From the NCBI RefSeq assembly GCF_003268655.1, contig NZ_CP029642.1, positions 4,092,001 through 4,156,000 of the forward strand: DNA of 64,000 bases, written 5' to 3'. A model generated the notes under the pieces. The model ran no database searches, was not told the DNA's origin, and worked only from the letters and a program-made list of their open reading frames with translations. Shown here in pieces: positions 8,272 to 39,077 of this stretch. The stretch is from Arthrobacter dokdonellae. GTDB taxonomy: Bacteria > Actinomycetota > Actinomycetes > Actinomycetales > Micrococcaceae. The position numbers were made by a program, and so were the translations under genes. Every line of letters begins with the position of its first letter. The stretch's first letter is position 1.

Positions 8272-8273
8272 GG

Positions 8274-9581: not shown

Positions 9582-9608
9582 GTGACTTCCTTGATCGGCC
9601 CATAATTT

Positions 9609-9623
9609 TGTATACAGTACACA
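9609..9623. promoter_or_regulatory. 15-bp imperfect palindromic operator, copy 2
   Basis: TGTATACAGTACACA is identical to 4336-4350. It abuts a predicted minus-strand promoter: TTGATA at 9652-9647, an 18-bp spacer, then TACAGT at 9628-9623. It therefore sits at the same place relative to the -10 as the gcvPA copy. It also lies upstream of the divergent short-chain dehydrogenase and could act on both. Confidence 0.7.
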
Positions 9624-9768
9624 CTGTACGTGGGCGGGGATGTGATTATCAACACCCTGACGAATAAAAAAATGAAGTCCTTCGCTCCCGGCGCGAGGCC
9701 CTCTCCGGCTAAAACTACGAAACCCCCTGTACGACAGCCATTTACCCCCGGAGGAGAAGAGAATTCCC

Positions 9769-15720: not shown

Positions 15721-15924
15721 TGTTTCCAAACCTCGCCGGGGAAGGTGTACAAAAATCAGACCTATCCCTTGGTCTTCACCGTCCCCACACTCATCGCCAC
15801 CATCTCCGAATTCGCCACGCTGGAGGCAGGTGACGTCATCCTCACCGGCTCACCATCCGGAGTTGGATACCGCCGAAACCCCCAACTGTTCCTTCCCTTT
15901 GAACCATTGACTATAGCGGTTTAG
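15721..15924 (+). pseudogene. C-terminal remnant of an FAH-family hydrolase gene
   Basis: One frame reads YPLVFTVPTLIATISEFATL, then EAGDVILTGSPSGVGYRRNP, ending in TAG at 15922-15924. This is the conserved C-terminal part of fumarylacetoacetate-hydrolase-fold enzymes (the vpeLIaylSr..tLepGDvIlTGTPsGVG block). There is no start codon, catalytic N-terminal part or ribosome site, so it is a truncated relic. Its last bases overlap the operator of the neighbouring GH18 promoter. Confidence 0.72.
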
Positions 15925-15935
15925 CCATGCACGAT
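15907..15935 (+). promoter_or_regulatory. Promoter and LacI-type operator ahead of the GH18 gene
   Basis: TTGACT at 15907-15912 is followed by a weaker -10 (CACGAT, about 15930-15935). Between them lies CTATAGCGGTTTAG (15911-15924), an imperfect palindrome with a central CG, typical of LacI-family operators. With its flank it matches 16 of 18 bases at 18182-18199, upstream of the mannoside transporter operon. This suggests control by the LacI protein encoded at 17110-18141. Confidence 0.6.
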
Positions 15936-16087
15936 TGCCAATGCCAGAAGTGCCCTGGTAGCGGGAGCGTCGCTGCGGCCGCCTTGTCGTTCTTCACCAT
16001 CGGCGTCACCTTGTCGGTCTTGATGAGGTCAGAAGTTCGCAAAGGGTGCCCGACGCAGACGAAGTCAATCAAGCAATGGAGGAAATG

Positions 16088-17086
16088 ATGAACTCAGCAG
16101 CAAGACCGGTCTCTTCGCCGGCTGCCCGAGCCAACTGGCCCCGTACCGTTGGCCTAGTGGCAGTAACGGCCATCGTCGCGGTATTGGCACTTGCTGGACC
16201 TCCCGCGGCGATAGGCGGTCCCGGCCATGGTCACGGCCAGTCACCCAAACAGAGCCACCGCACCGTGATGTACTACCAAACGCAATACAGCGACAACCAC
16301 TATGTGTCTCCGAAAGCCATGGTCGATCACCATACGGGACTGACTGATCTGATTGTGGGCGCTTTTCACGTCAATGAGACCCCTGGGGATATTCGACTCA
16401 ATGACGATTCGCCGTCGAGTCCGAAATTTGATGTGATGTGGAAAGACCTGACAACCATGCAGCGCAAAGGCGTTAAAGTACTCGGGTTTGTTGGCGGTGC
16501 TGCTGCGGGAAGCTTCCACCGTCTCGAACCAGAGACCTTCGACACCTACTATCCCGAACTCAAGGCCGTGATTTCCAGGTACAAGTTGGACGGCCTGGAT
16601 CTTGACGTTGAGGAATCGATGTCCCTCGCGGGCGTGGAGCACCTGATTGACCGTCTCAAAGCCGATTTTGGCAAGAAATTCCTGATCACATTGGCACCCG
16701 TGGCACCGGCGCTCAAGGGTGGTGGCAATCTCTCCGGCTTCGATTATGAACAGCTGTACAAGGAACGGGGCCAGTCCATCGCCTGGTTCAACACCCAGTT
16801 CTATTGTGGGTGGGGTACGTTAGCCTCCACAACAGGGTACAAGGCCATTATTGATCGTGGCGTTATTCCCGCCAGCAAGGTCGTTGCGGGGACGCTGACC
16901 AATCCTGCCAACTGTGGCAGTGGCTACGTGCCCATGTCTGAGCTGACTTCCACTATCGCATCCCTGAGCGATACGTATGAAACGTTTGGCGGCATTGCCG
17001 GCTGGGAATACTTCAATTCCATTCCCGGTGGGCCCGGCGCCCCCTGGCGGTGGGTCCGCGACGTCAGCGCGGCCATGCGGGACTGA
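16088..17086 (+). CDS. Secreted GH18 glycosidase, probable endo-beta-N-acetylglucosaminidase
   Basis: A 332-aa family-18 enzyme. The catalytic signature DGLDLDVE lies at residues 168-175, with Glu175 as proton donor; FNTQFYCGWG and the final GWEYFNS block complete the barrel. A basic stretch followed by a long hydrophobic segment (about residues 14-42) is a probable signal peptide. I chose the ATG at 16088 because GGAGG lies five bases upstream. GH18 contains chitinases and the endoglycosidases that cut the chitobiose core of N-glycans; the adjacent alpha- and beta-mannosidases and shared operator favour the second. It is convergent with lacI, with a 23-bp gap. Confidence 0.85.
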   Translation: MNSAARPVSSPAARANWPRTVGLVAVTAIVAVLALAGPPAAIGGPGHGHGQSPKQSHRTVMYYQTQYSDNHYVSPKAMVDHHTGLTDLIVGAFHVNETPGDIRLNDDSPSSPKFDVMWKDLTTMQRKGVKVLGFVGGAAAGSFHRLEPETFDTYYPELKAVISRYKLDGLDLDVEESMSLAGVEHLIDRLKADFGKKFLITLAPVAPALKGGGNLSGFDYEQLYKERGQSIAWFNTQFYCGWGTLASTTGYKAIIDRGVIPASKVVAGTLTNPANCGSGYVPMSELTSTIASLSDTYETFGGIAGWEYFNSIPGGPGAPWRWVRDVSAAMRD

Positions 17087-17109
17087 CCGGAAGCGGCCCC
17101 GGCACTGCC

Positions 17110-18141
17110 CTAGCGAAGTGGCGGGCACGTGGAGCCACGCGGACTCAAGGTCAGTGCCGGACCCTTCCGGGAGGGCAGCGGCGTGTCGGCGCCGATCTGG
17201 TCCAACAGGAGCCGCGCCGCCCGTTCCCCCAGTTCGACGGTATCGCGGGTGAGCGTCGTGAGCGAGGGACGCACCAGTCGGGCCATGGCGGAGTCGTCGA
17301 ACGAAGCGATCGAAAGTTGGGCTGGCACAGCGACCCCCATCTCGGCTGCAACTCCGAGGCCGGCGACAGCCAGGACGTCATTGTCGAAAACGATTGCCGT
17401 CGGACGCTCCTGTCGCGACAGCAGGGTGCGAGTGACATCGGCACCCTGCGCCGCCGAATAGTCCGTGACCAGGGATTCCACCGAGCTCAATCCTGTTGAG
17501 TCCGCGAATGATCGTAACGCCGCGATTCGCAGTCCGGTGTGCTCGAACTCCGCGGGGCCGGCGACGTGCGCAATTCTGGTGTGCCCGAGCGCATGCAAAT
17601 ATTTGAAAACCGTGAGCGCCGCCTCGGAATCGTCGATCCAGACGGAGGGAGCGCTGCCTTCGGACGATGGGCGGGATCCGACCACGATCGTCGGCATGCC
17701 GAGTTCGTCGAGGAGCTGCACGCGAGGGTCGTCCGTGCGCGGGTCGATGACGATGACGCCGTCGACTTGGTGTCCGTTCCACCACTCTTGGTAGGTGTCC
17801 AGTTCTTCCTGCAGGTCGCGGGCGACGAGGAGGTTCATTCCGACGTGAGAACCGCTCAAGCCCAGCTGGATGCCTGAAATGAGGTCGCCGAAGAAGGACT
17901 CGGTGCCCAGCGTTCGCGCCGGGCGGTTGAGGACGAAGCCGATCGTGCCGGCTCGGGCGCCCCCGAGGGCGCGAGCTGCGGAGTGTGGGCGCCAGTGCAT
18001 CTCTCGGGCGATCTCAAGGATGCGTGCCCGAGTCGAGGCCGAGACACCTGGCCGGTTGTTCAGCGCGAAGGAAACCGCGCCGGCCGAAACTCCTGCCCGC
18101 GCGGCGATATCTGCGATGGTGGCGCGTTTTATCGGTTTCAT
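17110..18141 (-). CDS. LacI-family transcriptional regulator of the mannoside locus
   Basis: A 343-aa repressor: helix-turn-helix at residues 8-29 (TIADIAARAGVSAGAVSFAL), hinge region near residue 50, then a periplasmic-binding-type sugar domain (DGVIVIDPRTDDP, IVFDNDVLAVAGLG, SIASFDDSAMARLVRPSLTT). The gene is divergent from the transporter operon and convergent with GH18. A CG-centred palindrome lies in both flanking promoters, so it likely represses the locus until a mannose-containing ligand arrives. The ligand is inferred from context only. Confidence 0.93.
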   Translation of the reverse strand: MKPIKRATIADIAARAGVSAGAVSFALNNRPGVSASTRARILEIAREMHWRPHSAARALGGARAGTIGFVLNRPARTLGTESFFGDLISGIQLGLSGSHVGMNLLVARDLQEELDTYQEWWNGHQVDGVIVIDPRTDDPRVQLLDELGMPTIVVGSRPSSEGSAPSVWIDDSEAALTVFKYLHALGHTRIAHVAGPAEFEHTGLRIAALRSFADSTGLSSVESLVTDYSAAQGADVTRTLLSRQERPTAIVFDNDVLAVAGLGVAAEMGVAVPAQLSIASFDDSAMARLVRPSLTTLTRDTVELGERAARLLLDQIGADTPLPSRKGPALTLSPRGSTCPPLR

Positions 18142-18181
18142 GACTCCCCCTTGCAGACGGTACGGACTTATTCCGGCACAC

Positions 18182-18210
18182 TTGACTATACCGCTTTAGT
18201 GAATAAGTAT
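18182..18210 (+). promoter_or_regulatory. Promoter and LacI-type operator of the mannoside transporter operon
   Basis: TTGACT at 18182-18187, a 16-17 bp spacer and TAAGTAT near 18204-18210 make a plausible promoter. CTATACCGCTTTAG (18186-18199) is an imperfect CG-centred palindrome lying in the spacer. The 18 bases 18182-18199 differ at only two positions from 15907-15924. The divergent lacI gene begins 40 bp away, so autoregulation is possible. Confidence 0.65.
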
Positions 18211-18292
18211 TGTCATTGCAATGAGGATAACGGTGATGCAGATCACTGTCCTCGGCCTCCAGTCACCGTCCTGCACAAAGGAGTTCCAAGCG

Positions 18293-19600
18293 ATGAAGCA
18301 ACGCACCCTAGACCGTCGAAGCCGCGCAATGAAGCGGGCGGGTCGAATAATGCTCGGAACGGGCGTTGCGGCCCTCATGCTTAGCGGATGCTCCGGCGGA
18401 TCCGGCGGTTCCGGTTCCTCCGGTGACGGGTCGATCAACGGCACCATCACCGTGCAAACCTGGGCGCTCACGCCGAAGTTCAGCGACTACCTCGACGGAG
18501 TGAAAAACGGCTTCGAGAAGGAGCACCCGGGGGTTACGGTCAAAATGGTCGATCAGCCAGGCGACGGCTACTCCGACAAGGTTCTCAGCCAGGCCTCGTC
18601 CAACTCCCTGCCTGATGTCATCAACCTTCCCCCTGACATTGCCCTGCCACTGGCCAAGCACGGCTACCTGCAGAATGTCGGCAAGAGCGACTCATCGCTG
18701 GCATCGACGTATGTTGCCGGGGCACTGGACGCCTACAAGTACAAGGGGCTCGACGGAACCTACGGTTACCCCTGGTATCTGAACACCGATGTCGATTACT
18801 GGAACAAGACCATGCTCTCCGACTGCGGACTGGACCCGTCTAAGGTGCCCACCACGACCGACCAACTCTTCGACCAGGCCGCGACGATGCACCAGCACTG
18901 CCCGGACAAGTACCTGATGAGCCGCAAGCCGGGTCTGGGGGACTTCACGCTCGCCGGTGTCAAGGTTCTCAACGATGACGGCACGAAGTTCACGTTCGCC
19001 GATTCGCCGGAGGCGGTGGACCTCATCGCCCGGTACGCGAAGGCGTACCAGCAGAAGTACATGCCGCCGTCCGTGCTCAACAGCGACTACCTGGGCAACT
19101 CGACGCTGTTCACCCAGGGCAAGGTCGCCTGGACCACCGGCGGTGCCACCAGCATCTCCGACTTCGAGAAGAACAACCCCTCGCTGAAGGGCAACGTGAT
19201 CGTTTCCCCCGCGCTTGACACTGCGCCGCTCTATGTACAAGGGCTGAGCGTCTCGGCCAAATCGAAGAACCTCGCCACCGCCGAGGCCTTCGCGAAGTAC
19301 ATGACGGACGCGAAGAACCAGGAGGCCTTCGCCCATCTGGTCAACATCTTCCCCTCCACGAAGTCCTCGCAGTCAGACCCCTTCTTCTCCAAAGATGACG
19401 GGACGCCCAACGGAAAGGCGCGGGTTCTCGCCAACGAGGCACTGAAAACGGCGAAGAACCTCACACCCGTCGAAGCCAACTCTGCAATGTCGACCTTCCT
19501 CGACCAGCAGATCTCACTGGCAATGAAGGGCGAGACCACACCGAAGGAAGCGCTGCAGACCGCGCAAACAAAGATGAACACTCTACTGGCCAACGGCTGA
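18293..19600 (+). CDS. Sugar ABC transporter solute-binding lipoprotein (mannoside locus)
   Basis: A 435-aa sugar-binding protein, first gene of the mannoside operon. The ATG at 18293 follows AAGGAG by nine bases; earlier in-frame starts lack a ribosome site. A basic N-terminal region leads into a lipobox (LMLSGCSGG) and a Gly/Ser linker. The mature domain has TITVQTWALTPKFSDYL, SLPDVINLPPDIALPLAK and GKVAWTTGGATSISDF. By context it captures mannose-rich oligosaccharides released by the GH18 enzyme; the ligand is not shown by the sequence itself. Confidence 0.93.
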   Translation: MKQRTLDRRSRAMKRAGRIMLGTGVAALMLSGCSGGSGGSGSSGDGSINGTITVQTWALTPKFSDYLDGVKNGFEKEHPGVTVKMVDQPGDGYSDKVLSQASSNSLPDVINLPPDIALPLAKHGYLQNVGKSDSSLASTYVAGALDAYKYKGLDGTYGYPWYLNTDVDYWNKTMLSDCGLDPSKVPTTTDQLFDQAATMHQHCPDKYLMSRKPGLGDFTLAGVKVLNDDGTKFTFADSPEAVDLIARYAKAYQQKYMPPSVLNSDYLGNSTLFTQGKVAWTTGGATSISDFEKNNPSLKGNVIVSPALDTAPLYVQGLSVSAKSKNLATAEAFAKYMTDAKNQEAFAHLVNIFPSTKSSQSDPFFSKDDGTPNGKARVLANEALKTAKNLTPVEANSAMSTFLDQQISLAMKGETTPKEALQTAQTKMNTLLANG

Positions 19601-19611
19601 CCGCTCCACAC

Positions 19612-19640
19612 GCCCGGCAGGGTCGCTGACTCTGCCGGGC
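19612..19640 (+). other. Intercistronic hairpin between binding-protein and permease genes
   Basis: A perfect 9-bp stem (19612-19620 with 19632-19640) with an 11-nt loop. It has no T-run. Placed after a binding-protein gene, it may protect the upstream message and lower permease expression, as known for many ABC importer operons. Confidence 0.6.
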
Positions 19641-19663
19641 ACCAACCCTGAAGGGAGACCCGC

Positions 19664-20542
19664 GTGCGCGCGAACCGATGGTTCACCCCGTGGATTTTTG
19701 TCATACCCGCCCTCGTCTGGTTACTCGCATTCAGTGTGTGGCCGTCGATCAACACGGTACGGCTTGCGTTCACCAATGCGAGCCCGCTCGGTGGCGTCAG
19801 CCGCTTCGTCGGACTGCAAAACTTCCAGACGATGTTCGCTGACCCGCAGGTCTGGGAGGCACTGCTCAACAGTGTCGTGTACATGGCGGTCTGCCTGCCA
19901 CTGCTGACGATCCTGCCACTCCTCATCGCGTTGCTCGTTGAGAAACGGCTACCTGGAATTGCGTTCTTCCGCACCGCCTTCTATTCGCCGGTTATCGCCT
20001 CTGCCGTGGTCGTCGGGCTCATCTGGACCTGGATCCTCGACGATCGCGGGGTCATCAACGAAATGGTGAAGGCGCTCGGCATCGTCCAAGGGCCCCTACC
20101 TTTCCTCACGGACCGTTGGTTGCTGCTGTTCAGCGCGATCAGCCTCACGGTCTGGAAGGGCCTGGGCTACTACATGATCATCTTCCTCGCAGCGCTGGGG
20201 AATGTCGGCAAGGACCTGCACGAAGCCGCAGCGCTCGACGGCGCTGGAGCCATCCGCCGGTTCTGGTCGGTGACCATGCCAGGCGTCCGCGGCACGATGA
20301 CGCTTGTTGGCATCCTGGTGTGCGTTTCCGCCCTCCGGGTCTTTAGCGAGCTCTACATCCTGACCAACGGTTCCGGAGGCCCCGGCGGCCAGGACCAGTC
20401 GGTCGTCATGCTCATCCAACAGTACGCGCGCGGGTTCACCGGCAACCTCGGCTACGCCTCGGCACTGAGCCTCCTGCTCTTCGCGGTCACGCTCGTTCCG
20501 ATGCTCGTACTCGCCCGACTCAACAGCAAGGCGCAGCAATGA
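19664..20542 (+). CDS. Carbohydrate ABC transporter permease, MalF type (mannoside locus)
   Basis: A 292-aa permease with a first membrane segment near residues 8-28, about six segments in all, and the ATPase-contact loop LHEAAALDGAGAIRRFWSVTMP near residue 185. The GTG start has a GGGAGA ribosome site. It overlaps the following permease by 4 bp. No ATPase gene is present in the operon, so a shared ATPase is needed. Confidence 0.93.
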   Translation: MRANRWFTPWIFVIPALVWLLAFSVWPSINTVRLAFTNASPLGGVSRFVGLQNFQTMFADPQVWEALLNSVVYMAVCLPLLTILPLLIALLVEKRLPGIAFFRTAFYSPVIASAVVVGLIWTWILDDRGVINEMVKALGIVQGPLPFLTDRWLLLFSAISLTVWKGLGYYMIIFLAALGNVGKDLHEAAALDGAGAIRRFWSVTMPGVRGTMTLVGILVCVSALRVFSELYILTNGSGGPGGQDQSVVMLIQQYARGFTGNLGYASALSLLLFAVTLVPMLVLARLNSKAQQ

Positions 20543-21489
20543 GCGACATCACCGATCCGGACTTCGCCGTCATCGGCCGGGCGGTATCGCCCGCGCCCGA
20601 CGTCACGGGCGGCAGGACTCCACCACCACCTACGGGGGCAAGGCGTCGACGCCGGGGCTGGGGCGTCATGTCCCGGCGCGAGCTGATCCTGCGCTACGTG
20701 CTGCTCGTGATCGTGCTCTTCATCGTCGTCGGCCCGTTCCTCTGGCAACTCTCCACATCGCTGAAGGGCTCCGGAGAGGACATCTACACTTCGACGCCGT
20801 CGTTCATCCCCAGCCAGCCGACACTGGAGAATTATGGGAAGGTCGCCGAAGCGATCCCCGTCTGGTTGTACATCGTCAATTCGCTGACAGTCGCAGCAAT
20901 CGACGTGGTCGGGAACCTCGTCTTCGCCACGTGCGCCGGGTTCGCGCTCGCCCGTCTCCGCTGGAAGGGGCAGCGGATCGTCCTCGGCCTGTTCCTTGCC
21001 ACGCTCATACTGCCAGGCGAGGCGACGATCATCGCGCAGTTCGTGACGATCAAGGACCTCGGTCTCTCCGATTCGCTGGTGGGTGTCGCCCTGCCGGGGA
21101 TGATCGCCGCAATCAACGTTCTACTGATGTACAACGCCTTCCGCCAGATTCCCGAAGAAATCGACCAGGCGGCCGTCGTCGACGGAGCGAACTCCTGGCA
21201 GAGGCTACGGTACATCGCCCTTCCCGCCGTGCAGGGCACTATTGCCGTCATCGCGATCTTTTCTTTCATCGGAGCCTGGGACGATTTCCTTTGGCCGCTC
21301 ATCGTGCTCCAGTCACCCGACAAACTCACCCTGACCGTGGGCCTCCAGTACCTCCAGGGGACGTTCTCGAATGATCAACGCTTGATCGCGGCGGGTACGA
21401 TGATCGCCTTCATTCCCATCGCCGTGATCTTCTCCATCCTGCAGCGGTACTTCTTCAAAGGCGTTGAAGAGGGCGGGGTCAAGGGCTGA
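20539..21489 (+). CDS. Carbohydrate ABC transporter permease, MalG type (mannoside locus)
   Basis: A 316-aa permease with an extended proline- and arginine-rich cytoplasmic N-terminus (about 45 residues, including PPPPTGARRRRRG) before the first membrane segment. The EAA loop reads EIDQAAVVDGANSWQRLRYIALP near residue 213. It pairs with the upstream MalF-type subunit. Its stop overlaps the start of the GH5 gene by one base (TGATG), which points to coupled translation of transport and hydrolysis genes. Confidence 0.93.
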   Translation: MSDITDPDFAVIGRAVSPAPDVTGGRTPPPPTGARRRRRGWGVMSRRELILRYVLLVIVLFIVVGPFLWQLSTSLKGSGEDIYTSTPSFIPSQPTLENYGKVAEAIPVWLYIVNSLTVAAIDVVGNLVFATCAGFALARLRWKGQRIVLGLFLATLILPGEATIIAQFVTIKDLGLSDSLVGVALPGMIAAINVLLMYNAFRQIPEEIDQAAVVDGANSWQRLRYIALPAVQGTIAVIAIFSFIGAWDDFLWPLIVLQSPDKLTLTVGLQYLQGTFSNDQRLIAAGTMIAFIPIAVIFSILQRYFFKGVEEGGVKG

Positions 21490-22802
21490 TGCGGTTCGGC
21501 GTCAATTACACCCCATCCGCAGGCTGGTTCCACTCCTGGCTGGACTTCTCGCCGTCTGCTGTCGCAGCAGACATGGAACGAATTGCCTCCCTGGGCGTCG
21601 ATCATGTGCGGATCTTTCCGCTCTGGCCGCTCGTTCAGCCCAACCGCACCCTTATCCGGCCGTCCGCGATTGCGGACATCGTCCAGGTCGTCGATATCGC
21701 GGCGTCCTTCGGGCTCGACGTCAACGTGGACGCACTGCAAGGCCACCTGTCAAGCTTCGACTTCATCCCGTCCTGGCTGGAATCGTGGCACCGGCGCAAC
21801 ATTTTCGTCGCGCCTGAAGTCATCACCTCCACCGCGACGTATGTCCGGGAGCTCACCAGCGCCGTGGCCAGCCGCCCCAACCTGCTCGGAGTGACGCTGG
21901 GGAACGAACTCAACCAATTTGCCCACGATCCCCATCCGACGCCGCACCGGGCAACGGAAAAGCAGGCCTCCGCGTGGCTGGCCTCCATGGTCGGTGCCGT
22001 CCGTGCGGAACTCGGCTCGACACCGGCGGCCAGGGCTCCCCTCGTGACGGTCGCCCAATACGATGCCGCCTGGTACGACGACGCCCAGCCCTTCGGCCCC
22101 GAGCACGCCGCCGACTACGGGGACCTGACAGTCACCCACTCCTGGGTATTCAACGGTGCCGCGCAACTCCATGGCCCGCTCGGCGAGGGCTCCGCCCGAC
22201 ATGCCGAGTACCTGATGCAGCTCGCTGCCGCCTGGAATCGCGACGCGAATCGCCTGAACTGGCTACAGGAGGTGGGGGCGCCGACCAACGTCGTCCCGGT
22301 CAAGGACGCCCCCGAGTTTCTCGAGAAAACGATCCGGCACGCCGCAGACGTGCAGAACAACTTCGGTGTCACCTGGTGGTGCTCGCACGACGTATCGCGG
22401 AAACTAGCGGACTTCCCGGAGCTGGAGTACGACCTCGGGCTCTTCACCAACGACGGGGTGCTGAAGCCGACCGGCGAGCGGTTCGCCGAGCTCGTGCACG
22501 AGTTCAGGAACGCGAAGGCGGGGGCCGGCACGCCGCCTCGCGATGCGCTCATCCTCGAGGACGTCGACGCCGCCGGCGTACCGGTCGCAGACGTGCGGAA
22601 ATCATGCGCACCAGGGGGCCGGTTTTCGCAGGCTTGGCTCCATCACGCGGCGTCGACTGGACGTGGTCCCCAGGTGGTGCTGCGGTCCAAAGTTGCCGAT
22701 GCGCTCCTCCTTGCCGCGCGCGGCATCACCGAAGTCCACGTCGTTCCGGCCGGCATCGACAGAATCGAACTGTCCATTGCCCATCCGGCCACCCATCACT
22801 GA
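21489..22802 (+). CDS. GH5-like glycosidase, probable beta-mannosidase acting on Man-beta-GlcNAc
   Basis: A 437-aa cytoplasmic TIM-barrel glycosidase with the clan GH-A pattern: the acid/base Glu140 in GVTLGNELNQFA and the nucleophile candidate Glu261 in NWLQEVGAP. The N-terminus MRFGVNYTPSAGWFHSW marks the barrel start. Size, lack of signal peptide and neighbours resemble GH5 subfamily 18 enzymes of bifidobacteria, which cut the core mannose-beta-1,4-GlcNAc of N-glycans. The subfamily call is from memory of that family and from context. An endomannanase or another GH5 specificity cannot be excluded. Confidence 0.75.
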   Translation: MRFGVNYTPSAGWFHSWLDFSPSAVAADMERIASLGVDHVRIFPLWPLVQPNRTLIRPSAIADIVQVVDIAASFGLDVNVDALQGHLSSFDFIPSWLESWHRRNIFVAPEVITSTATYVRELTSAVASRPNLLGVTLGNELNQFAHDPHPTPHRATEKQASAWLASMVGAVRAELGSTPAARAPLVTVAQYDAAWYDDAQPFGPEHAADYGDLTVTHSWVFNGAAQLHGPLGEGSARHAEYLMQLAAAWNRDANRLNWLQEVGAPTNVVPVKDAPEFLEKTIRHAADVQNNFGVTWWCSHDVSRKLADFPELEYDLGLFTNDGVLKPTGERFAELVHEFRNAKAGAGTPPRDALILEDVDAAGVPVADVRKSCAPGGRFSQAWLHHAASTGRGPQVVLRSKVADALLLAARGITEVHVVPAGIDRIELSIAHPATHH

Positions 22803-22862
22803 TCTCGAACACCCTATCCGTCTGCCAGACACAATGGCGGCAGACCACTTTGAAAGGCCCTG

Positions 22863-25800
22863 ATGCACGACGATATCCCCCTGACCATCGGCCGGGCGCG
22901 CCGCGTCCTTGACGAACGGATTGTGCCCGCCGTATACGGCACCACCATCCCATTGGAGGTGTCCTGGCACGAACTGCCCGGGGAACCCATTTCCCCGACA
23001 GAGGGTCTGGCCCTGCATTTCGAGCCGTACGAGGTGGGCACACCATGGGGTGCCGCGTGGGGGACGACGTGGTTCCGGCTACGCGCCACGGTCCCGCCCG
23101 AGTGGGCGGGCCGCAGGATCGATGCCCTCGTGGATCTCGGCTTTGACAAGAACATGCCGGGGTTCCAGTGCGAAGGGCTCGTTTACCGGCCGGACGGTTC
23201 CCCAGTGAAGTCGATCAATCCCCGGAACCAATGGATCCTGGTCCAGGAAGAGGCGGCAGGAGGCGAAAGTATCGAACTATTCCTCGAGGCTGCCGCGAAT
23301 CCGGTGCTGCTGGACTACCATCCCTTCCTGCCCACGCAGGAGGGCGACATCCTCACCTCCTCCAAGCGTCCGCTCTACGCCACCCGAAGGATGGAGTTGG
23401 CGGTATTTGAGCGAGAGGTGCACGAACTCGCCCTCGACATTGAGGTGCTGCTCGAACTGCAGGAGGAACTCCCGCAGGGCCCGCGCCGGATGCGGATCCT
23501 GCAAGCCCTCGATGACGCGCTGGACGAGCTGGACCTGCAGCAGATCCCGGCGACGGCGACGGCTGCGCGCGCCGTGCTGGCCCCGATCCTCGCTTCCCCG
23601 GCGGAGTCGTCGGCGCACCGGATCTCCGCCGTCGGACACGCACACATCGACTCCGCCTGGCTATGGCCGGTCCGGGAGACCATCCGCAAGGTGGCGCGCA
23701 CGGCATCCTCCATGACGGAGCTGATCGAGCAGGACGATGACTTCCTTTTCGGAATGTCCAGCGCCCAGCAGTACGCATGGGTCAAGGAGCATCGTCCCGA
23801 GGTCTGGGAGCGCATCGTCGCCGCTGTCGCCGCCGGACGGTTCCTGCCCCTCGGTGGCATGTGGGTGGAGTCGGACACGGTCATGCCCACCGGCGAATCG
23901 ATCGTACGGCAGTTCGCGTATGGCCAGCGATTCTTCCGCGAGGAGTTCGGCATCGAACCGAAGGGGGTCTGGCTCCCGGACAGCTTCGGGTATTCGCCCG
24001 CGCTACCGCAGCTGATGAAACGTGCCGGATTCCAATGGTTCTTCACGCAGAAGATCTCCTGGAATCAAGTCAACAAGTTTCCCCACCACACCTTCCTCTG
24101 GGAGGGGATCGACGGCTCCCGGGTGTTCTCGCATTTTCCCTCGATGGACACCTACAACTCGCAGCTCTCCGGCGCTGAGGTGGCCAAAGCCGCCAAACAG
24201 TTCCGCGAAAACCGTCTGGCTTCCGGTTCCATCGCTCCCGTCGGTTGGGGCGACGGCGGAGGCGGAACGACCCGCGAAATGACAGGCAAGGCTTCGCGAC
24301 TGAGGGACTTGGAGGGCAGTGCACGCGTGCACTGGGAACATCCGGACGAATTCTTCACGCGAGCCCGCACCGAGCTGGCCAATCCGCCAGTATGGGTCGG
24401 CGAACTGTACCTCGAACTGCACCGAGCCACCCTGACCTCGCAGCACCGCACCAAACAAGGCAACCGCCGCACCGAGCACCTGCTGATCGAGGCGGAACTC
24501 TGGAGTGCCACGGCCGCGGTGAGCGTCGGGTTTGCGTATCCATATGACGAACTGGACGAATGCTGGCGTCAGGTCCTGCTACAGCAGTTCCACGACATTC
24601 TGCCCGGGACTTCGATCGCATGGGTGCACCGTGAAACGGTTCAGGAATACGCCCGTGTCACCAAGCGGTTGGAGGCCATCATCGCGGACGCGCTGGCTGC
24701 ACTCACTGGATCGGGGGAATCGGCGATTGTCGTCAACCCGGCACCCTTCGCCCGTTCCGGCGTGCGCGCCCTCAGCGCGACGCCGGCAACGGAGCTCAAC
24801 CCGACCGAACCTGTTCGGCTCGAAGAGGTATCCGACGGGTACGTGCTCACCAATGAACTGGTTCGTGTCAGCATCAGCCGGGCCGGACTCGTCACGTCTG
24901 CCCTGGATCTCTCCACCGGTCGCGATGCGATCCCTGCGGGTCAAGCAGGCAACCTATTGCAGCTGCACCAGGACTTTCCCAACATGTGGGATGCATGGGA
25001 CGTCGACCGCTACTACCGCAACAGAGTCGAGGATATTCGTTGCGTCGAAGCGCTCGATGCGGAGGTTGGCAGCGGTGGCGTCGCCCGGGTCAGGGTGCAG
25101 CGCACCTTCTCCGACTCTGCCATCGATCAGACGCTCTCGCTGGCACCGGGCTCCCGCACACTGGAAATCACCCAAACTGTGGACTGGCATGAGACCGAGA
25201 AATTCCTCAAGCTGGCGTTCCCCCTCGACGTGCACGCCGAGCACACCATCGCCGAGACACAGTTCGGTGCGAACAAACGGGTCACCCATACCAACACGTC
25301 CTGGGAGGCCGCCAAGTTCGAGACATCAATGCACCGGTACGTTCTCGTGGAAGAACCGGGCTTCGGCGTCGCCTTGGTGAACGACTCCACCTACGGTTAC
25401 GACATGACCCGGGATTCGGTCGATGGCCACGTCACCACGACCCTGCGCCTCTCGCTGCTGCGGGCCCCGCGCTTTCCGGACCCGGAGACCGACCAGGGCA
25501 GGCAGACCCATCGGTTCGGCCTCGTCATTGGAACGTCAGTGGCCGGGGCCACGGAGGAGGGTGTGTTGCTGAACCTGGACGGCCGTTCCCTGCGCGGCGA
25601 TCACGGATTCTCCCCCCTGGTCTCCATCGACGGTGGCATCGTCGTGTCAAGCGTCAAGTTGGCGGACGATCGCTCGGGTGACCTGGTCGTGCGCGTTTAC
25701 GAGCCGATCGGGCGCCGCACGACGGGAGCGCTGAGCGTGCACGCGCCGGTCGCCCAAGCGACGACCGTGTCCCTTCTCGAAGGACCGCTCGGGGCCCAGG

Positions 25801-25889
25801 AGAATCCGGAATCGCCAATGGACGACGGCGTGGTAACGCTCGCCCTGGCACCGTTCGAAGTGCGCACGATGCGCTTCCGGCTCGCATGA
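22863..25889 (+). CDS. GH38 alpha-mannosidase
   Basis: A 1008-aa enzyme with the usual GH38 length of about 1000 aa. The metal-site block GHAHIDSAWLWPVRETIRK lies near residues 258-276. The nucleophile Asp is in GGMWVESDTVMPTGESIVRQ near residue 337, followed by WLPDSFGYSPALPQ. A GWGDGGGGTTREM segment and a long beta-rich C-terminal domain complete it. No signal peptide, so it trims imported mannosides in the cytoplasm. It begins 60 bp after the GH5 gene with a weak AAAGG ribosome site and overlaps GH92 by 4 bp. Confidence 0.95.
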   Translation: MHDDIPLTIGRARRVLDERIVPAVYGTTIPLEVSWHELPGEPISPTEGLALHFEPYEVGTPWGAAWGTTWFRLRATVPPEWAGRRIDALVDLGFDKNMPGFQCEGLVYRPDGSPVKSINPRNQWILVQEEAAGGESIELFLEAAANPVLLDYHPFLPTQEGDILTSSKRPLYATRRMELAVFEREVHELALDIEVLLELQEELPQGPRRMRILQALDDALDELDLQQIPATATAARAVLAPILASPAESSAHRISAVGHAHIDSAWLWPVRETIRKVARTASSMTELIEQDDDFLFGMSSAQQYAWVKEHRPEVWERIVAAVAAGRFLPLGGMWVESDTVMPTGESIVRQFAYGQRFFREEFGIEPKGVWLPDSFGYSPALPQLMKRAGFQWFFTQKISWNQVNKFPHHTFLWEGIDGSRVFSHFPSMDTYNSQLSGAEVAKAAKQFRENRLASGSIAPVGWGDGGGGTTREMTGKASRLRDLEGSARVHWEHPDEFFTRARTELANPPVWVGELYLELHRATLTSQHRTKQGNRRTEHLLIEAELWSATAAVSVGFAYPYDELDECWRQVLLQQFHDILPGTSIAWVHRETVQEYARVTKRLEAIIADALAALTGSGESAIVVNPAPFARSGVRALSATPATELNPTEPVRLEEVSDGYVLTNELVRVSISRAGLVTSALDLSTGRDAIPAGQAGNLLQLHQDFPNMWDAWDVDRYYRNRVEDIRCVEALDAEVGSGGVARVRVQRTFSDSAIDQTLSLAPGSRTLEITQTVDWHETEKFLKLAFPLDVHAEHTIAETQFGANKRVTHTNTSWEAAKFETSMHRYVLVEEPGFGVALVNDSTYGYDMTRDSVDGHVTTTLRLSLLRAPRFPDPETDQGRQTHRFGLVIGTSVAGATEEGVLLNLDGRSLRGDHGFSPLVSIDGGIVVSSVKLADDRSGDLVVRVYEPIGRRTTGALSVHAPVAQATTVSLLEGPLGAQENPESPMDDGVVTLALAPFEVRTMRFRLA

Positions 25890-28800
25890 CGGCGGCAGTG
25901 GAGCAAGACGCCGCCGCGGGAACGCCCGGAGGCAGCGGCCCGACGACGGCGGTTGCCGCGCGGAACGGAGTCGGACTGACCTCGGTGAACGCAACGCTCC
26001 TTGAGGGCAGGGTGGGAACGGTGACCGTGCTGGAAGTGCCCGGTCTGGCTGGACGTACGATCAAGGCCGATGAACGGCTCATGTGGGCCTGGTTCCCCGA
26101 ACGCTCGCTTCCCGCCGGCCGAATCGAGCCCGACGACTCGGACCTGGACCACTTCTGGGACGCCACGGCGTTCGCCGTCGACCTCGTGTTCGACGACGGC
26201 ACCCGGCTCTCCGAACACGCCGTGATGGATCAGTACGGCACCCTGCCTTCCGCCGACGCGCAGTTCACGGCCCGTACCGCCTGGGTGGATCAGTGGAATC
26301 GCCGAACGGTGCAACTTGACGCCGTGCTCGGTCGAACCGTCGCACGCGCCGAAGCGGTGCTCGGCGTGGCGACCAACGGAGCGGGCGCGTCGCCCCTGGC
26401 GATCCGCGGCTGGATTGACGAGGTGCTGATCGGGCCCAACCCGCCCCGCCCATCCAGACCCCTGGACCTGGTACGGACGACCCGCGGCACGCACTCGTCG
26501 GGACGGTTTTCACGGGGCAACACCGCCCCCCTGGTAGCCGTTCCGCACGGGGGCGTGTTCGGGCTGCCGATGACCCGGGCAGACGAATCGCGGTGGCCAT
26601 ACTCGTACCATGAACACAATCGCGTCAGCGACAACCGTCCGACGATTGAAGCGTTCGCGACGTCTCATCTGCCCTCGCCGTGGATGGGGGACCGGGGAGT
26701 GTTCCAGCTCATGCCGAGCCCACTCGCCCAGCCCCCAACGGGGCGGACGGAGCGGGCCCTCGCGTTCGACCACGACAGTGAACAAGATGGCCCGCATCGG
26801 TATTCCGTGCGCTTGGATGCAGGTGAGGCCGGCATCGTCGAGGCAACGATGACCGCCGGTGACTTCGCCCTCGGCCTACGGTTCATCTTCCCAGGCGCAA
26901 CCGATCAGGCGTCGATCATCGTGGACCACCATGGGGCCGTGCGGGATGTGCACGTGCACACCGAGGGCGCCGACACCGTCATTGAGGTGCTCCTGGACGA
27001 CCGCGCGGAATCGCCGCAACACTACGTGCACCTGCGCGTGCCCAACGTCCTGGCGGACCGGACCAGTGTGGTGTCGGGACTCCTGCGCGGTTCACTGCTG
27101 GTGGCGGTGGACGGCCCGGTGGACGTCCTGTTGGGCATTTCGACGGTTTCGTTTCCGGACGCAGCGGCGAACCTGGCTGCTGCGGGCGGATTCGATGCCA
27201 TGCTCGGCGCAGCCGAGCAGCAATGGGCGGAAAAGCTCGGCACACTCGAGGTGGAGGGCGCTGGCGACGATCGGCTTGTGTCCCTTTACTCCGGACTGTA
27301 CCGGTTGTTCCTGTACCCGAACCGGGCTGGCGAAACCGCCCTCACCGGCGCCCCCCACTACCGCTCGCCGTACGGAGAGACCCTGGAACGTTCGATCCGC
27401 GCTGTACCCGGACGGGAGGTGGTGGAGGCCCCCTTCACGACGACGAACGGATTCTGGGACACGTACCGTACCGCCTGGCCGCTGCTTGGCCTGCTGACCC
27501 CGCGCAGCGCCGGCACCCTGGCGCAGGGCTTCCTGCAACATTTCGTGGACTCCGGCTGGATGCCGAGGTGGAGCGCACCGGGCGCCGAGGACGTCATGAC
27601 AGGAACCACCAGCGATACGGTGTTGGCCGACTTGTTGGCCAAGCATGTTCCCGGCATTGATCCGGAACTCGCTTATCGCGCGGCCGTGAAGAATGCCACC
27701 GTGCCGGCTCCAGACGCCCGGGTGGGGCGCAAGGGGATTCTGCCCGGCGCCTTTCGCGGCTACGTGGACACCGCCACGGACGAGGGCATGTCCTGGACGC
27801 TGGACGCGGCCATCAACGACTGGTCGATCTCTGTGTTGGCGCGCCTGCTGGCCGACCGAGCCGAGCCTGGTTCCAGTACGGCGGAAAGGCTGGCTGCCGA
27901 GGCCGAGTGGTTCACTCGGAGGTCCTTGCAGTATCGGAACGTGTTCCATCCGGACCTGGGATTCTTCCTCGGCCGCACGATGAACGGCGCTTGGCGGGTA
28001 GCGGGGCGAGACTTCGACCCGGATGAGTGGGGCCATGACTACACCGAGACCAATGCGTGGGGAACCATGTTCACGGCTCCGCACGACGGTGCAGGGGTCG
28101 CGGCGTTGCACGGCGGTGAAAACGGACTGATGAGCGCGCTGGATCGTTTCTATCGTCGCCGCGAGACCGGATCATCGGAGCACTGCGGATCCTATGGCTT
28201 CGCCATCCACGAGATGACCGAGGCGCGCGACATCCGGATGGGGATGCTCGGCCTGTCGAATCAGCCGGCACACCATATCCCGTTCTTTCCAATGTTCGCC
28301 GGCAGGCACGACGATGCGCATCGAGTATTGCTCGAATGCGTGGATCGGCTGTTCGTCGGCTCCGATAACGGCCAGGGATACCCTGGGGACGAGGATAACG
28401 GGGAGATGAGTGCCTGGTATGTGTTCGTCACCATCGGGATCTATCCCTTGGTTCCGGCAACCGGGACATACGTGTTGATTCCACCGTCCGTCCACCGCAC
28501 CGAGCTTCGATTGGACGGCGGCGCAACCACCGTGCTGGAAGTCGTTCCCGGCACGGAGGGAGGCCGGTTCATCCGCTCCGTCAAGGTAAACGGTGAGCCG
28601 TGGTCGTCCATTTCCATTGATCACGATGTGATCGCGTCCGGTGCCCACGTCGAGTTTGAGCTCGCCTCCGAGCCGTGCGGCTGGGCGGCCGATTCACGAC
28701 CACCCAGCGCCTCCTCCCTCCACGGCTTTTCGGACGGCCCGATTGATGTGCTGCCTCGGGGCGCCCATCCCCTCACGGACGACGAGGGCCGCACGGCAGT

Positions 28801-29149
28801 ACGTCTCACAGTGGGCGAGTCCGTCGATTTTCCGGTGTCGCTCGGAGCGGCTTCGCTTTACACGCTCACCGCGGCAGAACCGGGCGCCTACGCCTGGTCC
28901 GTCTCGTGGGTCACGGCTGATGGTGTGGCCACAGCCGCAGATGAGAGAGACGCTGAGATTTTCGAATGGTCCGGGCAAACCCGGGTCTTCCGTATCCACG
29001 GCGGAGTGCGCGACGGGTTCATGCGCCTCACGGCCTCGACCTCGTGCCTGTTCACGCAAGCGGAGCTCATCCCTGTCAGCGGGCCGGCTCAGGCAGCGGG
29101 CGGGTCCGGTGCCGACGACGGCTCCCAGGTTGCCAGGGGGGGCGCATGA
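25886..29149 (+). CDS. GH92 alpha-mannosidase
   Basis: A 1087-aa exo-alpha-mannosidase of family 92, a calcium-dependent family mostly acting on alpha-1,2-linked mannose of N-glycans. Diagnostic blocks are TNGFWDTYRTAWPLL, GWMPRWSAPG, GTTSDTVLADL and GYPGDEDNGEMSAWYVF near residues 830-846. Many GH92 enzymes are exported; this one has no signal peptide and an Ala/Gly-rich N-terminus, so it is probably intracellular. A C-terminal extension beyond about residue 930 looks like an added beta-domain. The start overlaps GH38 (ATGA) and its stop overlaps the kinase gene, giving tight coupling. Confidence 0.94.
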   Translation: MTAAVEQDAAAGTPGGSGPTTAVAARNGVGLTSVNATLLEGRVGTVTVLEVPGLAGRTIKADERLMWAWFPERSLPAGRIEPDDSDLDHFWDATAFAVDLVFDDGTRLSEHAVMDQYGTLPSADAQFTARTAWVDQWNRRTVQLDAVLGRTVARAEAVLGVATNGAGASPLAIRGWIDEVLIGPNPPRPSRPLDLVRTTRGTHSSGRFSRGNTAPLVAVPHGGVFGLPMTRADESRWPYSYHEHNRVSDNRPTIEAFATSHLPSPWMGDRGVFQLMPSPLAQPPTGRTERALAFDHDSEQDGPHRYSVRLDAGEAGIVEATMTAGDFALGLRFIFPGATDQASIIVDHHGAVRDVHVHTEGADTVIEVLLDDRAESPQHYVHLRVPNVLADRTSVVSGLLRGSLLVAVDGPVDVLLGISTVSFPDAAANLAAAGGFDAMLGAAEQQWAEKLGTLEVEGAGDDRLVSLYSGLYRLFLYPNRAGETALTGAPHYRSPYGETLERSIRAVPGREVVEAPFTTTNGFWDTYRTAWPLLGLLTPRSAGTLAQGFLQHFVDSGWMPRWSAPGAEDVMTGTTSDTVLADLLAKHVPGIDPELAYRAAVKNATVPAPDARVGRKGILPGAFRGYVDTATDEGMSWTLDAAINDWSISVLARLLADRAEPGSSTAERLAAEAEWFTRRSLQYRNVFHPDLGFFLGRTMNGAWRVAGRDFDPDEWGHDYTETNAWGTMFTAPHDGAGVAALHGGENGLMSALDRFYRRRETGSSEHCGSYGFAIHEMTEARDIRMGMLGLSNQPAHHIPFFPMFAGRHDDAHRVLLECVDRLFVGSDNGQGYPGDEDNGEMSAWYVFVTIGIYPLVPATGTYVLIPPSVHRTELRLDGGATTVLEVVPGTEGGRFIRSVKVNGEPWSSISIDHDVIASGAHVEFELASEPCGWAADSRPPSASSLHGFSDGPIDVLPRGAHPLTDDEGRTAVRLTVGESVDFPVSLGAASLYTLTAAEPGAYAWSVSWVTADGVATAADERDAEIFEWSGQTRVFRIHGGVRDGFMRLTASTSCLFTQAELIPVSGPAQAAGGSGADDGSQVARGGA

Positions 29150-30120
29150 AAGCCCTTCCTCGCCTCCTTGCCATTGATGCGGGACAGACCGGAATCAAGC
29201 TCCGCCACCGAGAAGGGCCCAGAGTGGAGGAATGGTCGCTGCCTGGCATCCGCACGGATCGACCCCTCCCCGCGCAACTGCGGACCGTCCTCACCTCGGT
29301 TGCCGGCCGGGGGCTGAGGGCTGACTCGATCGGCATCGGCGCCTCCGGGCTGATCGAGGGCGAAGCGGACCCTGACATCCTCCTGGAAGCCGCCGGACCG
29401 CTGGACGCCACGTCGTTGGTGCTCGCACATGACTCGATCACGGCGTACCTCGGAGCCCTGGGAGACGAACGGGGCGTTGTTGTAGCTGCGGGAACCGGCG
29501 TCGTCACCCTCGCCGTGGGAATCTATGACGTCGCTCGTGTCGACGGCTGGGGCAACATCATCGGCGACGCAGGCAGCGGATACTGGATCGGTCGAGCGGC
29601 CCTCGATGCCGTGATGCGCGCCCACGACGGCAGGGGCCCCCAAACCGCGCTGACCGCGGCAGTGCGGAAAGACTTCCCGGACCTTGAATCTGCCTATATT
29701 GAACTGCAGGGCGATGTCGAGAGGGTACGGCGCGTCGCCGCCTATTCGAGAACGGTCGGGGAGCTTGCCGGTGAAGATCCCGTCGCCGCGACAATCATTG
29801 CTGCGGCAGGCAGTGAACTCGCGCTGGCTGCGGCATGCGGACTGCGGCGCGTCGGAGAGGCCACTGCACCCTGTCCGAAGGTCTGCGCCATAGGGGGAGC
29901 ATTCACGTCACCGCACCTGGCAGCAGCATTCGATGGCGCGGTGAGGACGCAAATTCCGGAAGCGGATATCGCCGTCGGCCTTTCCAACCCCCTCGACGGG
30001 GCGGAAAAGCTGACGACGCTCGCCCCCGAGAGCGCTTTGACACCCAATGTCCTCCACAGCCGGCCCAGAGAGGGAAACCATGCCGGGGCAGCGACGCGAT
30101 CAATGTCAGAAGGGATCTGA
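29146..30120 (+). CDS. BadF/BadG-type ATPase, probable N-acetylglucosamine kinase
   Basis: A 324-aa sugar-kinase-fold protein of the BadF/BadG/BcrA/BcrD group, which includes N-acetylglucosamine kinases. Visible motifs are the phosphate-1 loop LAIDAGQTGIKLRH, the ASGLIEGEADPD region, GVVVAAGTGVVTLAVG near residue 113 and GWGNIIGDAGSGYWIG near residue 140. I chose the ATG at 29146 because it overlaps the GH92 stop as ATGA and precedes the phosphate loop. In this locus it would phosphorylate GlcNAc, or mannose, released by the upstream glycosidases. The manA gene follows immediately. Confidence 0.85.
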   Translation: MKALPRLLAIDAGQTGIKLRHREGPRVEEWSLPGIRTDRPLPAQLRTVLTSVAGRGLRADSIGIGASGLIEGEADPDILLEAAGPLDATSLVLAHDSITAYLGALGDERGVVVAAGTGVVTLAVGIYDVARVDGWGNIIGDAGSGYWIGRAALDAVMRAHDGRGPQTALTAAVRKDFPDLESAYIELQGDVERVRRVAAYSRTVGELAGEDPVAATIIAAAGSELALAAACGLRRVGEATAPCPKVCAIGGAFTSPHLAAAFDGAVRTQIPEADIAVGLSNPLDGAEKLTTLAPESALTPNVLHSRPREGNHAGAATRSMSEGI

Positions 30121-31347
30121 ATGTTCGTCTCCATCGCCAACGATCCCAAGCAGTATGCTTGGGGATCCCACTCGGCCGTCGCGTCCATCCTCGGGCGGGA
30201 GGAGTCGGGAAAACCCGAAGCAGAGCTGTGGTTGGGAGCACACCCGGCTTCCCCGGCACGCATCGTCGACCCTGCAAGAATGGACGGTCACACGACGCTG
30301 GCGGAGTGGATCGCGGCCGACCCACTCCAGGCACTCGGTCCCCAGCTGGCACCGGGAACGCGCCTACCGTTCCTGCTGAAGGTGCTCGCGGCATCCTTGC
30401 CACTCTCGCTTCAGGCGCACCCTACAGAAGTCCAGGCAGCCGCCGGATTCGAACGTGAGAACGCAGCCGGCATCCCCTTGGATGCACCCTTTCGGAACTA
30501 TCGGGATCCGCACCACAAGCCCGAACTTCTCGTCGTCCTGAGCGAAACGTTCGAAGCACTCTGCGGGTTCAGATCTCTCGACGAGGTGCAATCCGTAGTC
30601 CGGAAGCTGTGTCGACGTGCTCTCGGGGATCCAGCCGCCCGGTCCGACCTGGAGCAGTTCTCCGCGAGAATCGGTGCCGCAACGGGGCTCAGCCCGGTCG
30701 TGGAATGGCTCCTTGAGGGGTCGCCCGAAGTTTCCAGGCTGGTGGACGCTCTCGTCCACTTGGCAACCCATCCCGCCGGCGTCGAGGAGAAGCCAACCCC
30801 TCTGAGCACCATCCGGCAACTTGCCAATAGCTATCCAGGAGACCCTGGCATCGTTGTGTCACTGCTCGTGAACCACGTGACGCTCTCCCGCGGAGATGCA
30901 CTCTACCTACCGGCGGGTAACATCCATGCCTATTTGCACGGCGTCGGCATCGAACTCATGGCGGCATCCGACAATGTCCTTCGCGGCGGCTTGACCACGA
31001 AACATGTCGACGTGAAGGAACTTCTTCAAGTCCTCGACTTCAGCCCCAGCCCCGTTCCTCTTCTGCTTCCAGATCAGCTGGCACGGGGTGTCAAGGTCTT
31101 TCGTCCCGAGGTGGCAGATTTCCAGCTGATTCAAGCCGATCTGGAAGACTCTATGGTGTCCCTCGACCTGGAGGGGCCGACGATAATTTTCGTTTCAGAA
31201 GGACAGGCCCATCTGGAGGGGAGCCGATCGTCCCGAACGGCGGCCAAGGGTGAGGCGCTTTACATCACGCCTGATGAAGGATTTCTCACGCTCGCCGGCT
31301 CGGGCCAGGTCTTTCTGGCCACCACCGGGTCCCCGCCCGCCAACTGA
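30121..31347 (+). CDS. manA: Mannose-6-phosphate isomerase, class I
   Basis: A 408-aa zinc enzyme that converts mannose 6-phosphate to fructose 6-phosphate. Zinc-site blocks are LSLQAHPTEV near residue 97 and YRDPHHKPELLV near residue 124; GDALYLPAGNIHAYLHG and the signature RGGLTTKHVD near residue 288 complete the active site. The ATG directly follows the TGA of the kinase gene, with AAGGGAT as ribosome site inside it. It ends the operon and links mannose released by GH38, GH92 and GH5 to glycolysis. Confidence 0.95.
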   Translation: MFVSIANDPKQYAWGSHSAVASILGREESGKPEAELWLGAHPASPARIVDPARMDGHTTLAEWIAADPLQALGPQLAPGTRLPFLLKVLAASLPLSLQAHPTEVQAAAGFERENAAGIPLDAPFRNYRDPHHKPELLVVLSETFEALCGFRSLDEVQSVVRKLCRRALGDPAARSDLEQFSARIGAATGLSPVVEWLLEGSPEVSRLVDALVHLATHPAGVEEKPTPLSTIRQLANSYPGDPGIVVSLLVNHVTLSRGDALYLPAGNIHAYLHGVGIELMAASDNVLRGGLTTKHVDVKELLQVLDFSPSPVPLLLPDQLARGVKVFRPEVADFQLIQADLEDSMVSLDLEGPTIIFVSEGQAHLEGSRSSRTAAKGEALYITPDEGFLTLAGSGQVFLATTGSPPAN

Positions 31348-37067: not shown

Positions 37068-37110
37068 TATGTGCCAATCAATCAGTGCCCCGGCGGGGGC
37101 AAATGGGAAT

Positions 37111-38919: not shown

Positions 38920-39009
38920 GAACTGCCTCTCGAACTATTGAGGGCCGACGCAGTGTGCGACGTCCCGGCAAAGGAGGTGTGTGACCCTCGAGAGGGGCAC
39001 GTTTGATCA

Positions 39010-39038
39010 AGTAAATACAGGTAATCGAAATAAGTCAA
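39010..39038 (-). promoter_or_regulatory. Predicted promoter of the oligopeptide-type importer operon
   Basis: On the minus strand TTGACT (39038-39033) is followed after 17 bp by TTTACT (39015-39010). A small palindrome, TTGATCAA, lies just downstream at 39003-39010 and could be the site of the divergent ROK repressor, but this is a guess. Confidence 0.5.
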
Positions 39039-39077
39039 CGCTCTTTTGTCGAAACGGGACTTCGGCCTAAATTCACG

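Follow-up and report, generated by a model that had tools for sequence, protein, structure and literature searches.

The window analysed here, a 64,000 nt stretch of the Arthrobacter dokdonellae genome (NZ_CP029642.1, positions 4,092,001 to 4,156,000), carries ten genes (nt 16046–31347) that together are best explained, with a probability of about 0.86, as a LacI-controlled regulon for N-glycan utilisation with an exchangeable endo-beta-N-acetylglucosaminidase (ENGase). A preliminary description of this DNA had proposed a high-mannose N-glycan utilisation locus with cytoplasmic trimming, and this central proposal finds good support in the sequence, the gene context and the regulation. The pathway type is already known; what is added here is an operator sequence shared by the ENGase gene and the transport operon, and the exchange of the ENGase among related loci. 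Gene content, homology, the shared operator, the exchange pattern and phylogenetic trees were all computed. The genes listed previously are present at the positions then given (open reading frames, Pfam and NCBIfam), and the features of the locus are as follows.

15909..15924 (no strand), operator-like palindrome GACTATAGCGGTTTAG, upstream of the GH18 gene and overlapping a TTGACT hexamer
16046..17086 (+), glycoside hydrolase family 18 (GH18) protein, predicted secreted ENGase of Endo T type (PF00704; likely start ATG 16076)
17110..18141 (-), LacI-family repressor, predicted regulator of both promoters (PF00356 and PF13377)
18184..18199 (no strand), operator-like palindrome GACTATACCGCTTTAG, between lacI and the transport operon
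18221..19600 (+), ATP-binding cassette (ABC) sugar-binding lipoprotein (SBP), lipobox LMLSGC; start possibly 18293
19664..20542 (+), ABC permease 1 (P1), UgpA type (Pfam/NCBIfam)
20539..21489 (+), ABC permease 2 (P2), UgpE/MalG type (Pfam/NCBIfam)
21489..22802 (+), GH5_18 beta-mannosidase, predicted to split mannose (Man)-beta-1,4-N-acetylglucosamine (GlcNAc), from PDB sequence matches
22863..25889 (+), GH38 alpha-mannosidase, predicted cytoplasmic (Pfam; 7ufr, 813 bits, residues 9-1005)
25886..29149 (+), GH92 alpha-mannosidase lacking an N-terminal hydrophobic segment (PF07971; 7nsn, 664 bits)
29146..30120 (+), BadF/NagK-type sugar kinase, from ATG 29146; candidate substrates GlcNAc and/or mannose (Pfam/NCBIfam)
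30121..31347 (+), class I mannose-6-phosphate isomerase ManA, one of two in the genome (Pfam/NCBIfam)

By sequence, the GH18 protein is a predicted ENGase of the Endo T type. Searches of PDB sequences returned 2y8v (297 bits) and Endo T (4ac1, 265 bits), and the next structure, a chitinase, scored 57 bits. Identity to Endo T is 49% (133 of 270 aligned residues), and 137 of 274 residues are shared with 2y8v. Six of the seven Endo T residues discussed in excerpts of PMC3408457 are kept (Y12, D129, E131, A159, Y195 and W259), the seventh, C43, being a glycine in the window protein. The catalytic pair D129 and E131 of Endo T corresponds to D187 and E189, and its aromatic pocket (Y12, Y195, W259) to Y76, Y253 and W320. 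The N-terminus includes a hydrophobic segment with a Kyte–Doolittle 15-residue maximum of 2.87, and the protein is the sole PF00704 match in the genome.

Alternatively, the GH18 protein could be a chitinase, or act on chito-oligosaccharides of fungal walls, and lie beside a mannoside operon that imports other beta-mannosyl or mannosyl-GlcNAc sugars. Existing labels point in this direction, as 2y8v, the top match, was deposited as 'class III chitinase, putative', and many of the named GH18 relatives among the 120 matches listed are called chitinases. Excerpts of PMC12691653 also describe Actinoplanes GH5 enzymes of the BlGH5_18/BlMan5B clade as acting on the sporangium matrix, so the clade is not devoted to N-glycans alone. 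The chitinase reading is, however, favoured neither by sequence, given the similarity to Endo T and the kept residues, nor by gene context: the GH18 gene and the transport operon carry the same operator, other kinds of ENGase occupy the same place or operator in relatives (see below), and a single PF00704 match is found in the genome. Grouping with chitinases, which the preliminary description had named as the outcome that would speak against it, was not seen by sequence, scores against the listed structures other than 4ac1 and 2y8v (itself the labelled putative chitinase) being 57 bits or less. Overall, this alternative is considered improbable.

Upstream of the GH18 gene, and again ahead of the transport operon, stands a LacI-type palindrome, ACTAWANCGNTWTAGT. 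Its searched core, GACTATASCGSTTTAG, is present without mismatch at nt 15909 and 18184; no third site within one mismatch occurs in the 4.5-Mb genome, and the sole further place within two mismatches has two. When the window was scanned at up to three mismatches, four matches were returned (both strands of the 15909 and 18184 sites) against 0.25 expected in shuffled sequences. The motif recurs at the lacI/SBP promoter of related loci, with the LacI gene beside it, and among the loci studied 69 of 86 SBP genes carry an upstream site with no more than two mismatches to ACTAWANCGNTWTAGT. Across 86 distinct site contexts the dyad continues outward with an A at position -1 (88%) and a T at +14 (88%). 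The exact pattern CTATANCGNTTTAG was then searched in 20 genomes picked for carrying the core, with the reversed pattern as control. It was found at 34 sites in 17 of the 20 genomes (reversed pattern, 0 in 20), and in all 34 cases, among them the G110 site at 3378829 (L159:5830), a LacI, SBP, GH5, GH38, GH92 or ENGase gene starts no more than 250 bp away. Twelve of these sites precede ENGase genes (EndoS-type five, Endo H-type three, GH85 three, and Endo T-type one, in the window). The pattern was derived from loci already examined, and sites inside such loci are partly circular; the independent test is therefore provided by the seven sites outside core stretches, all of which precede an ENGase. 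They are not seven independent events, since genomes G068, G041 and G110 are close kin within one genus. The shared operator sequence suggests that the ENGase and the transport operon belong to one regulon.

The palindrome might instead be a shared promoter element, or the site of a global regulator, and not the operator of the window LacI. In favour of this, the palindrome overlaps a TTGACT hexamer at the two sites of the window and in many relatives. It is nevertheless a CG-centred dyad of the form usual in LacI operators, and the exact sites, 34 of 34 at the genes of one pathway in 17 genomes, are too few and too specific for either of these, which makes this explanation quite improbable.

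Related loci were collected by scanning genome contigs with the GH5_18 protein, and the best 80 of 121 places, Curtobacterium leading, were kept (the 80 named loci). GH5 and GH38 occur together in 78 of them and a six-gene core (LacI, SBP, P1, P2, GH5 and GH38) in 69, while GH92 is present in 10 and BadF or ManA in none. The ENGase near GH5_18 is an Endo H-type GH18 in 39 loci, a GH85 in 10, an EndoS-type GH18 in nine and an Endo T-type in one, with none in 21. These kinds were assigned from the PDB matches of single members: 339 bits to Endo H (1edt) for the Endo H-type, 396 and 111 bits to GH85 ENGases for GH85, and, for the EndoS-type, 233 bits to 6kpl, 160 to 7puj, 148 to CP40 and at most 138 to EndoS-labelled chains, together with 284 bits to the Pfam EndoS barrel. 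In two Leifsonia loci (L006, L044) the place of the window GH18 is taken by an Endo H-type gene, likewise upstream of lacI and of the same orientation, whose site differs from the palindrome by one mismatch. An Endo T-type gene follows P2 in L092 and L093, and a GH85-like gene, weakly matching Streptomyces GH85 (95–125 bits), follows P2 in L130, L137, L142, L143 and L144.

Five of the 15 same-family loci with an SBP have no ENGase in the fetched stretch (L126, L127, L128, L134, L159). In four of these five genomes, exact operator matches outside the stretch lead to ENGases. G068, G041 and G110 each carry, some 9.6 kb from the SBP promoter, an Endo H-type gene that diverges from GH92 (L172, L186, L187), and an operator-preceded GH85 at least about 0.9 Mb away (L194, L195, L174); in G016 an EndoS-type gene lies behind an operator on another contig (L190). 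No exact site was found in the fifth, G168 (L128).

Placement was counted for 74 ENGase entries, i.e., 81 genes minus the seven in operator-fetched loci (73 places, since L075, of Arthrobacter terrae, coincides with L150, of the same-family genome G132). Fifteen, the window gene included, have a site with no more than three mismatches within 500 bp, compared with nine of 3383 control tiles taken away from core promoters and these genes. By kind, these are Endo H-type (five), EndoS-type (seven) and Endo T-type (three, including the window), with no GH85. A further 52 lie directly behind a core gene, among them 16 Curtobacterium Endo H-type genes with a domain start 121–289 bp past the GH38 stop, and three Streptomyces GH85 genes 226–275 bp past GH5. 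These data suggest that LacI and the transporter/GH5_18/GH38 core stay together in other Actinomycetota, and that the ENGase is exchanged among four kinds.

Besides the label of 2y8v, several observations weigh against this interpretation. No ENGase of these kinds is found within the fetched stretch of the 21 named loci mentioned above, which include the Actinoplanes group, and the 10.9-Mb genome of L038 has both of its exact sites at the SBP promoter. Three of the 20 chosen genomes have no exact CTATANCGNTTTAG site. Curtobacterium dominates the loci, which are not independent samples, and the best PDB match of the EndoS-type member, 6kpl, is labelled a chitinase. Seven of the 74 entries lack a site and do not directly follow a core gene (four EndoS-type genes 1.6–1.7 kb behind P2, the Endo T-type gene of L095, and one GH85 counted twice, as L075/L150), and no GH85 among the 74, that is, outside operator-fetched loci, has a site of its own.

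Some loci with an Endo T-type gene are arranged differently. A Microbacteriaceae metagenome-assembled genome (L039, 1-16332) carries an Endo T-type GH18, GH5_18, GH38 and GH76, with oligopeptide-type ABC genes replacing the usual SBP and permeases, and operator-like sites ahead of several genes. Two loci from the same genus as the window (L094, L095) have a divergent Endo T-type GH18/GH92 pair some 15–18 kb from a GH5_18/GH38 pair that lacks the operator; a variant dyad, ACTTAAGCGCATTAGT in L094, lies between the Endo T-type GH18 and GH92.

The core and the ENGase of the window differ in their relationships. GH5_18 occurs in 41 of the 395 family genomes and in 21 of the 23 genus genomes, as a single copy in the window's genome, and the window protein is only 48–53% identical to the other same-genus copies compared with 72% to that of Leifsonia. 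In a GH5_18 tree (41 rows chosen of 108) it groups with Curtobacterium and Leifsonia (six rows, support 100/98). A GH38 tree built by a quick method (38 rows chosen of 102) joins the window exclusively to Microbacteriaceae rows (eight rows, 98). Five of 395 family genomes and three of 23 genus genomes carry the Endo T-type GH18, and in its tree (32 rows) the window protein clusters with the proteins of the four other family genomes, with that of Pseudarthrobacter sp. P1 and with two further ones that are unnamed (eight rows, 99/99). Since the GH5_18 and GH38 trees place the window with Microbacteriaceae and the GH18 tree with Micrococcaceae, the core seems to have been acquired laterally and the ENGase to be local, which suggests that the regulon is a mosaic of a Microbacteriaceae-type core and a Micrococcaceae-type ENGase. 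Just before the GH18 operator is a C-terminal remnant of an FAA-hydrolase gene (about nt 15745–15894, plus strand), matching PF01557 profile positions 146–193 only. It is likely to be a recombination scar. The fungal and bacterial enzymes meet by long branches in the Endo T tree, so that no conclusion is drawn on transfer between fungi and bacteria.

The eight transport and enzyme genes from SBP to ManA are co-directional, as had been described. Overlaps, previously said to occur at most junctions, are found at four of the seven: 4 bp at P1/P2, GH38/GH92 and GH92/BadF, and 1 bp at P2/GH5. BadF and ManA abut, and gaps of 63 and 60 bp separate SBP from P1 and GH5 from GH38, respectively. The start formerly given for the locus, nt 15907, falls at the operator-like palindrome 15909–15924. 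The GH5-like protein, for which neither Pfam nor NCBIfam gave a match, is by sequence assigned to GH5_18, the family of Man-beta-1,4-GlcNAc mannosidases: nine PDB chains align at 325–449 bits from residue 1 or 2 to at least residue 401, including ScGH5_18 (7lr7, 449 bits), BlGH5_18 (7lr1, 387), BlMan5B (6mp2, 349), 6gvb (325) and 9y4v, the last labelled merely a glycosyl hydrolase. The closest structure to GH38 over nearly its full length is the alpha-mannosidase 7ufr of Bifidobacterium longum, and GH92, the sole PF07971 match in the genome, matches a chain labelled 'GH92 alpha-1,2-mannosidase' (7nsn). Kyte–Doolittle maxima at the N-terminus are low for GH38 (1.1), GH92 (0.9), BadF (0.9) and ManA (0.6), and in GH5_18 hydropathy peaks at 1.65, not before residue 60. 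By this hydropathy measure, the trimming enzymes GH38 and GH92 appear to lack signal peptides, as proposed earlier, and GH38 and GH5_18, adjacent in one run with SBP and the permeases, are predicted to be cytoplasmic.

The best structural matches of the BadF kinase are a Sulfolobus hexokinase (2e2n, 66 bits) and an N-acetylmuramic acid/GlcNAc kinase (50 bits), and its homologues are named 'N-acetylglucosamine kinase' or 'glucosamine kinase', names that do not fix the substrate. Because each glycan would supply several mannoses and one GlcNAc, and because ManA needs mannose 6-phosphate, our guess is that a mannose or dual-specificity kinase is likelier than one for GlcNAc alone. The earlier view of the locus as self-contained, with a full route to fructose 6-phosphate and GlcNAc 6-phosphate, is too strong, since the run has no ABC ATPase and the one OB_MalK match in the genome (1.13 Mb) and both PF01182 (NagB-type) matches are outside the locus; NagA was not looked for. 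The second ManA is at 1.51 Mb (G000:C1:1507730).

A locus for mannan or mannoprotein, in which GH92 and GH38 act on imported outer-chain mannose from O-mannan or yeast mannan, is very improbable: both families act on yeast mannan too and a GH76 lies beside the core in L039, but the run contains no GH76, the ENGase is predicted to be co-regulated, and a beta-mannosidase of the Man-beta-1,4-GlcNAc family would be useless for pure alpha-mannan. For fungal glycoproteins, the N-glycan and mannan readings overlap.

For the N-glycan regulon we infer the following route, in which all enzyme activities are predicted from family membership, and repressor binding, the inducer and the import of large glycans are likewise predictions. 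The secreted Endo T-type GH18 would cut the chitobiose core of mannose-rich glycans on soil glycoproteins of fungal or plant origin, leaving one GlcNAc on the protein. The released glycan, ending in a single GlcNAc, would be imported by SBP, the two permeases and a MalK-type ATPase encoded elsewhere. In the cytoplasm, GH92 would take off alpha-1,2-mannoses and then GH38 the alpha-1,3/1,6-mannoses, after which GH5_18 would split the last Man-beta-1,4-GlcNAc. The BadF kinase may phosphorylate GlcNAc and/or mannose, and ManA would convert mannose 6-phosphate to fructose 6-phosphate. LacI bound at ACTAWANCGNTWTAGT would shut both promoters until an uptake intermediate releases it. Among relatives, the ENGase would be swapped between Endo T-, Endo H- and EndoS-type GH18 and GH85, placed either within the operon or behind an operator copy of its own.

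Comparable pathways are known from other bacteria. Like the window locus, that of Streptococcus pneumoniae combines an ENGase, ABC import and trimming by alpha-mannosidases; it uses GH85 Endo D and GH125, and family searches of the window's genome returned no GH85 and no GH125. The high-mannose pathway of Bifidobacterium longum supplies the closest solved GH38 (7ufr) and a GH5_18 of the same family as that of the window, while its host and ENGase are different. GH5_18 loci of gut and soil actinobacteria (Bifidobacterium, Streptomyces) were reportedly described with shared core genes by Higgins et al. in 2021. In B. infantis, according to excerpts of PMC9599254, the regulator credited with an N-glycan cluster is the NagR paralogue NglR, and not a LacI of the window type. 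The N-glycan locus of Cutibacterium acnes, in excerpts of PMC6160142, resembles the window in having cytoplasmic GH38 and GH5_18, an ABC transporter and a regulator, and its GH18 (AEE72704) is 41.7% identical to Endo T; unlike the window run, it has a GH20 and an ATP-binding gene, and its GH18 lacks a signal peptide. The text of that paper does not contain the term 'GH92', and its excerpts do not mention BadF, ManA or an operator. The closest characterised enzyme to the window GH18 is Endo T of Trichoderma (fungal GH18 subgroup B-V), whose substrates, in excerpts of PMC3408457, are believed to be glycoproteins secreted by the fungus itself; in contrast to the window locus, the enzyme is fungal and without an uptake pathway. 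A literature search, with most subscription journals outside its coverage, returned no title or abstract reporting a LacI regulon or operator of N-glycan genes, nor any in related Arthrobacter work.

Elsewhere in the window, nt 32565–42736 resembles an uptake locus, with a ROK protein and a Dpp-type ABC transporter (minus strand) beside a ROK-type repressor, an M81/MlrC metallopeptidase and CutC (plus strand). A link between these genes and the N-glycan locus was rejected, as they belong to other families and no operator match was found there at up to three mismatches. A further, separate operon at nt 4461–9626 (minus strand) encodes a GH42 beta-galactosidase, an SBP and two ABC permeases, and glycine dehydrogenase is encoded as two adjacent proteins at nt 1337–4272 (minus strand), with PF02347 in both and PF21478 in one.

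Looking more widely, it seems fairly probable that a single LacI with its operator ACTAWANCGNTWTAGT marks out an N-glycan regulon in several actinomycetotal families; that the secreted ENGase serves there as an interchangeable front end, with four kinds, drawn from two GH families, recruited apparently separately into the operon or under that operator; that the operator alone therefore finds ENGases, remote and mislabelled ones included; and that the window regulon is a mosaic. If this is true, the regulator would fix the role of such loci more firmly than enzyme labels do, with genes named 'chitinase' being reassigned as ENGases by their regulon, and a short DNA pattern would point to ENGases elsewhere in genomes, which could be useful for glycoprotein tools. 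It would also provide a clear case of a surface enzyme being exchanged while the importer, cytoplasmic enzymes and regulator are kept, and would suggest that soil bacteria adapt to different glycoproteins by changing the first enzyme alone.

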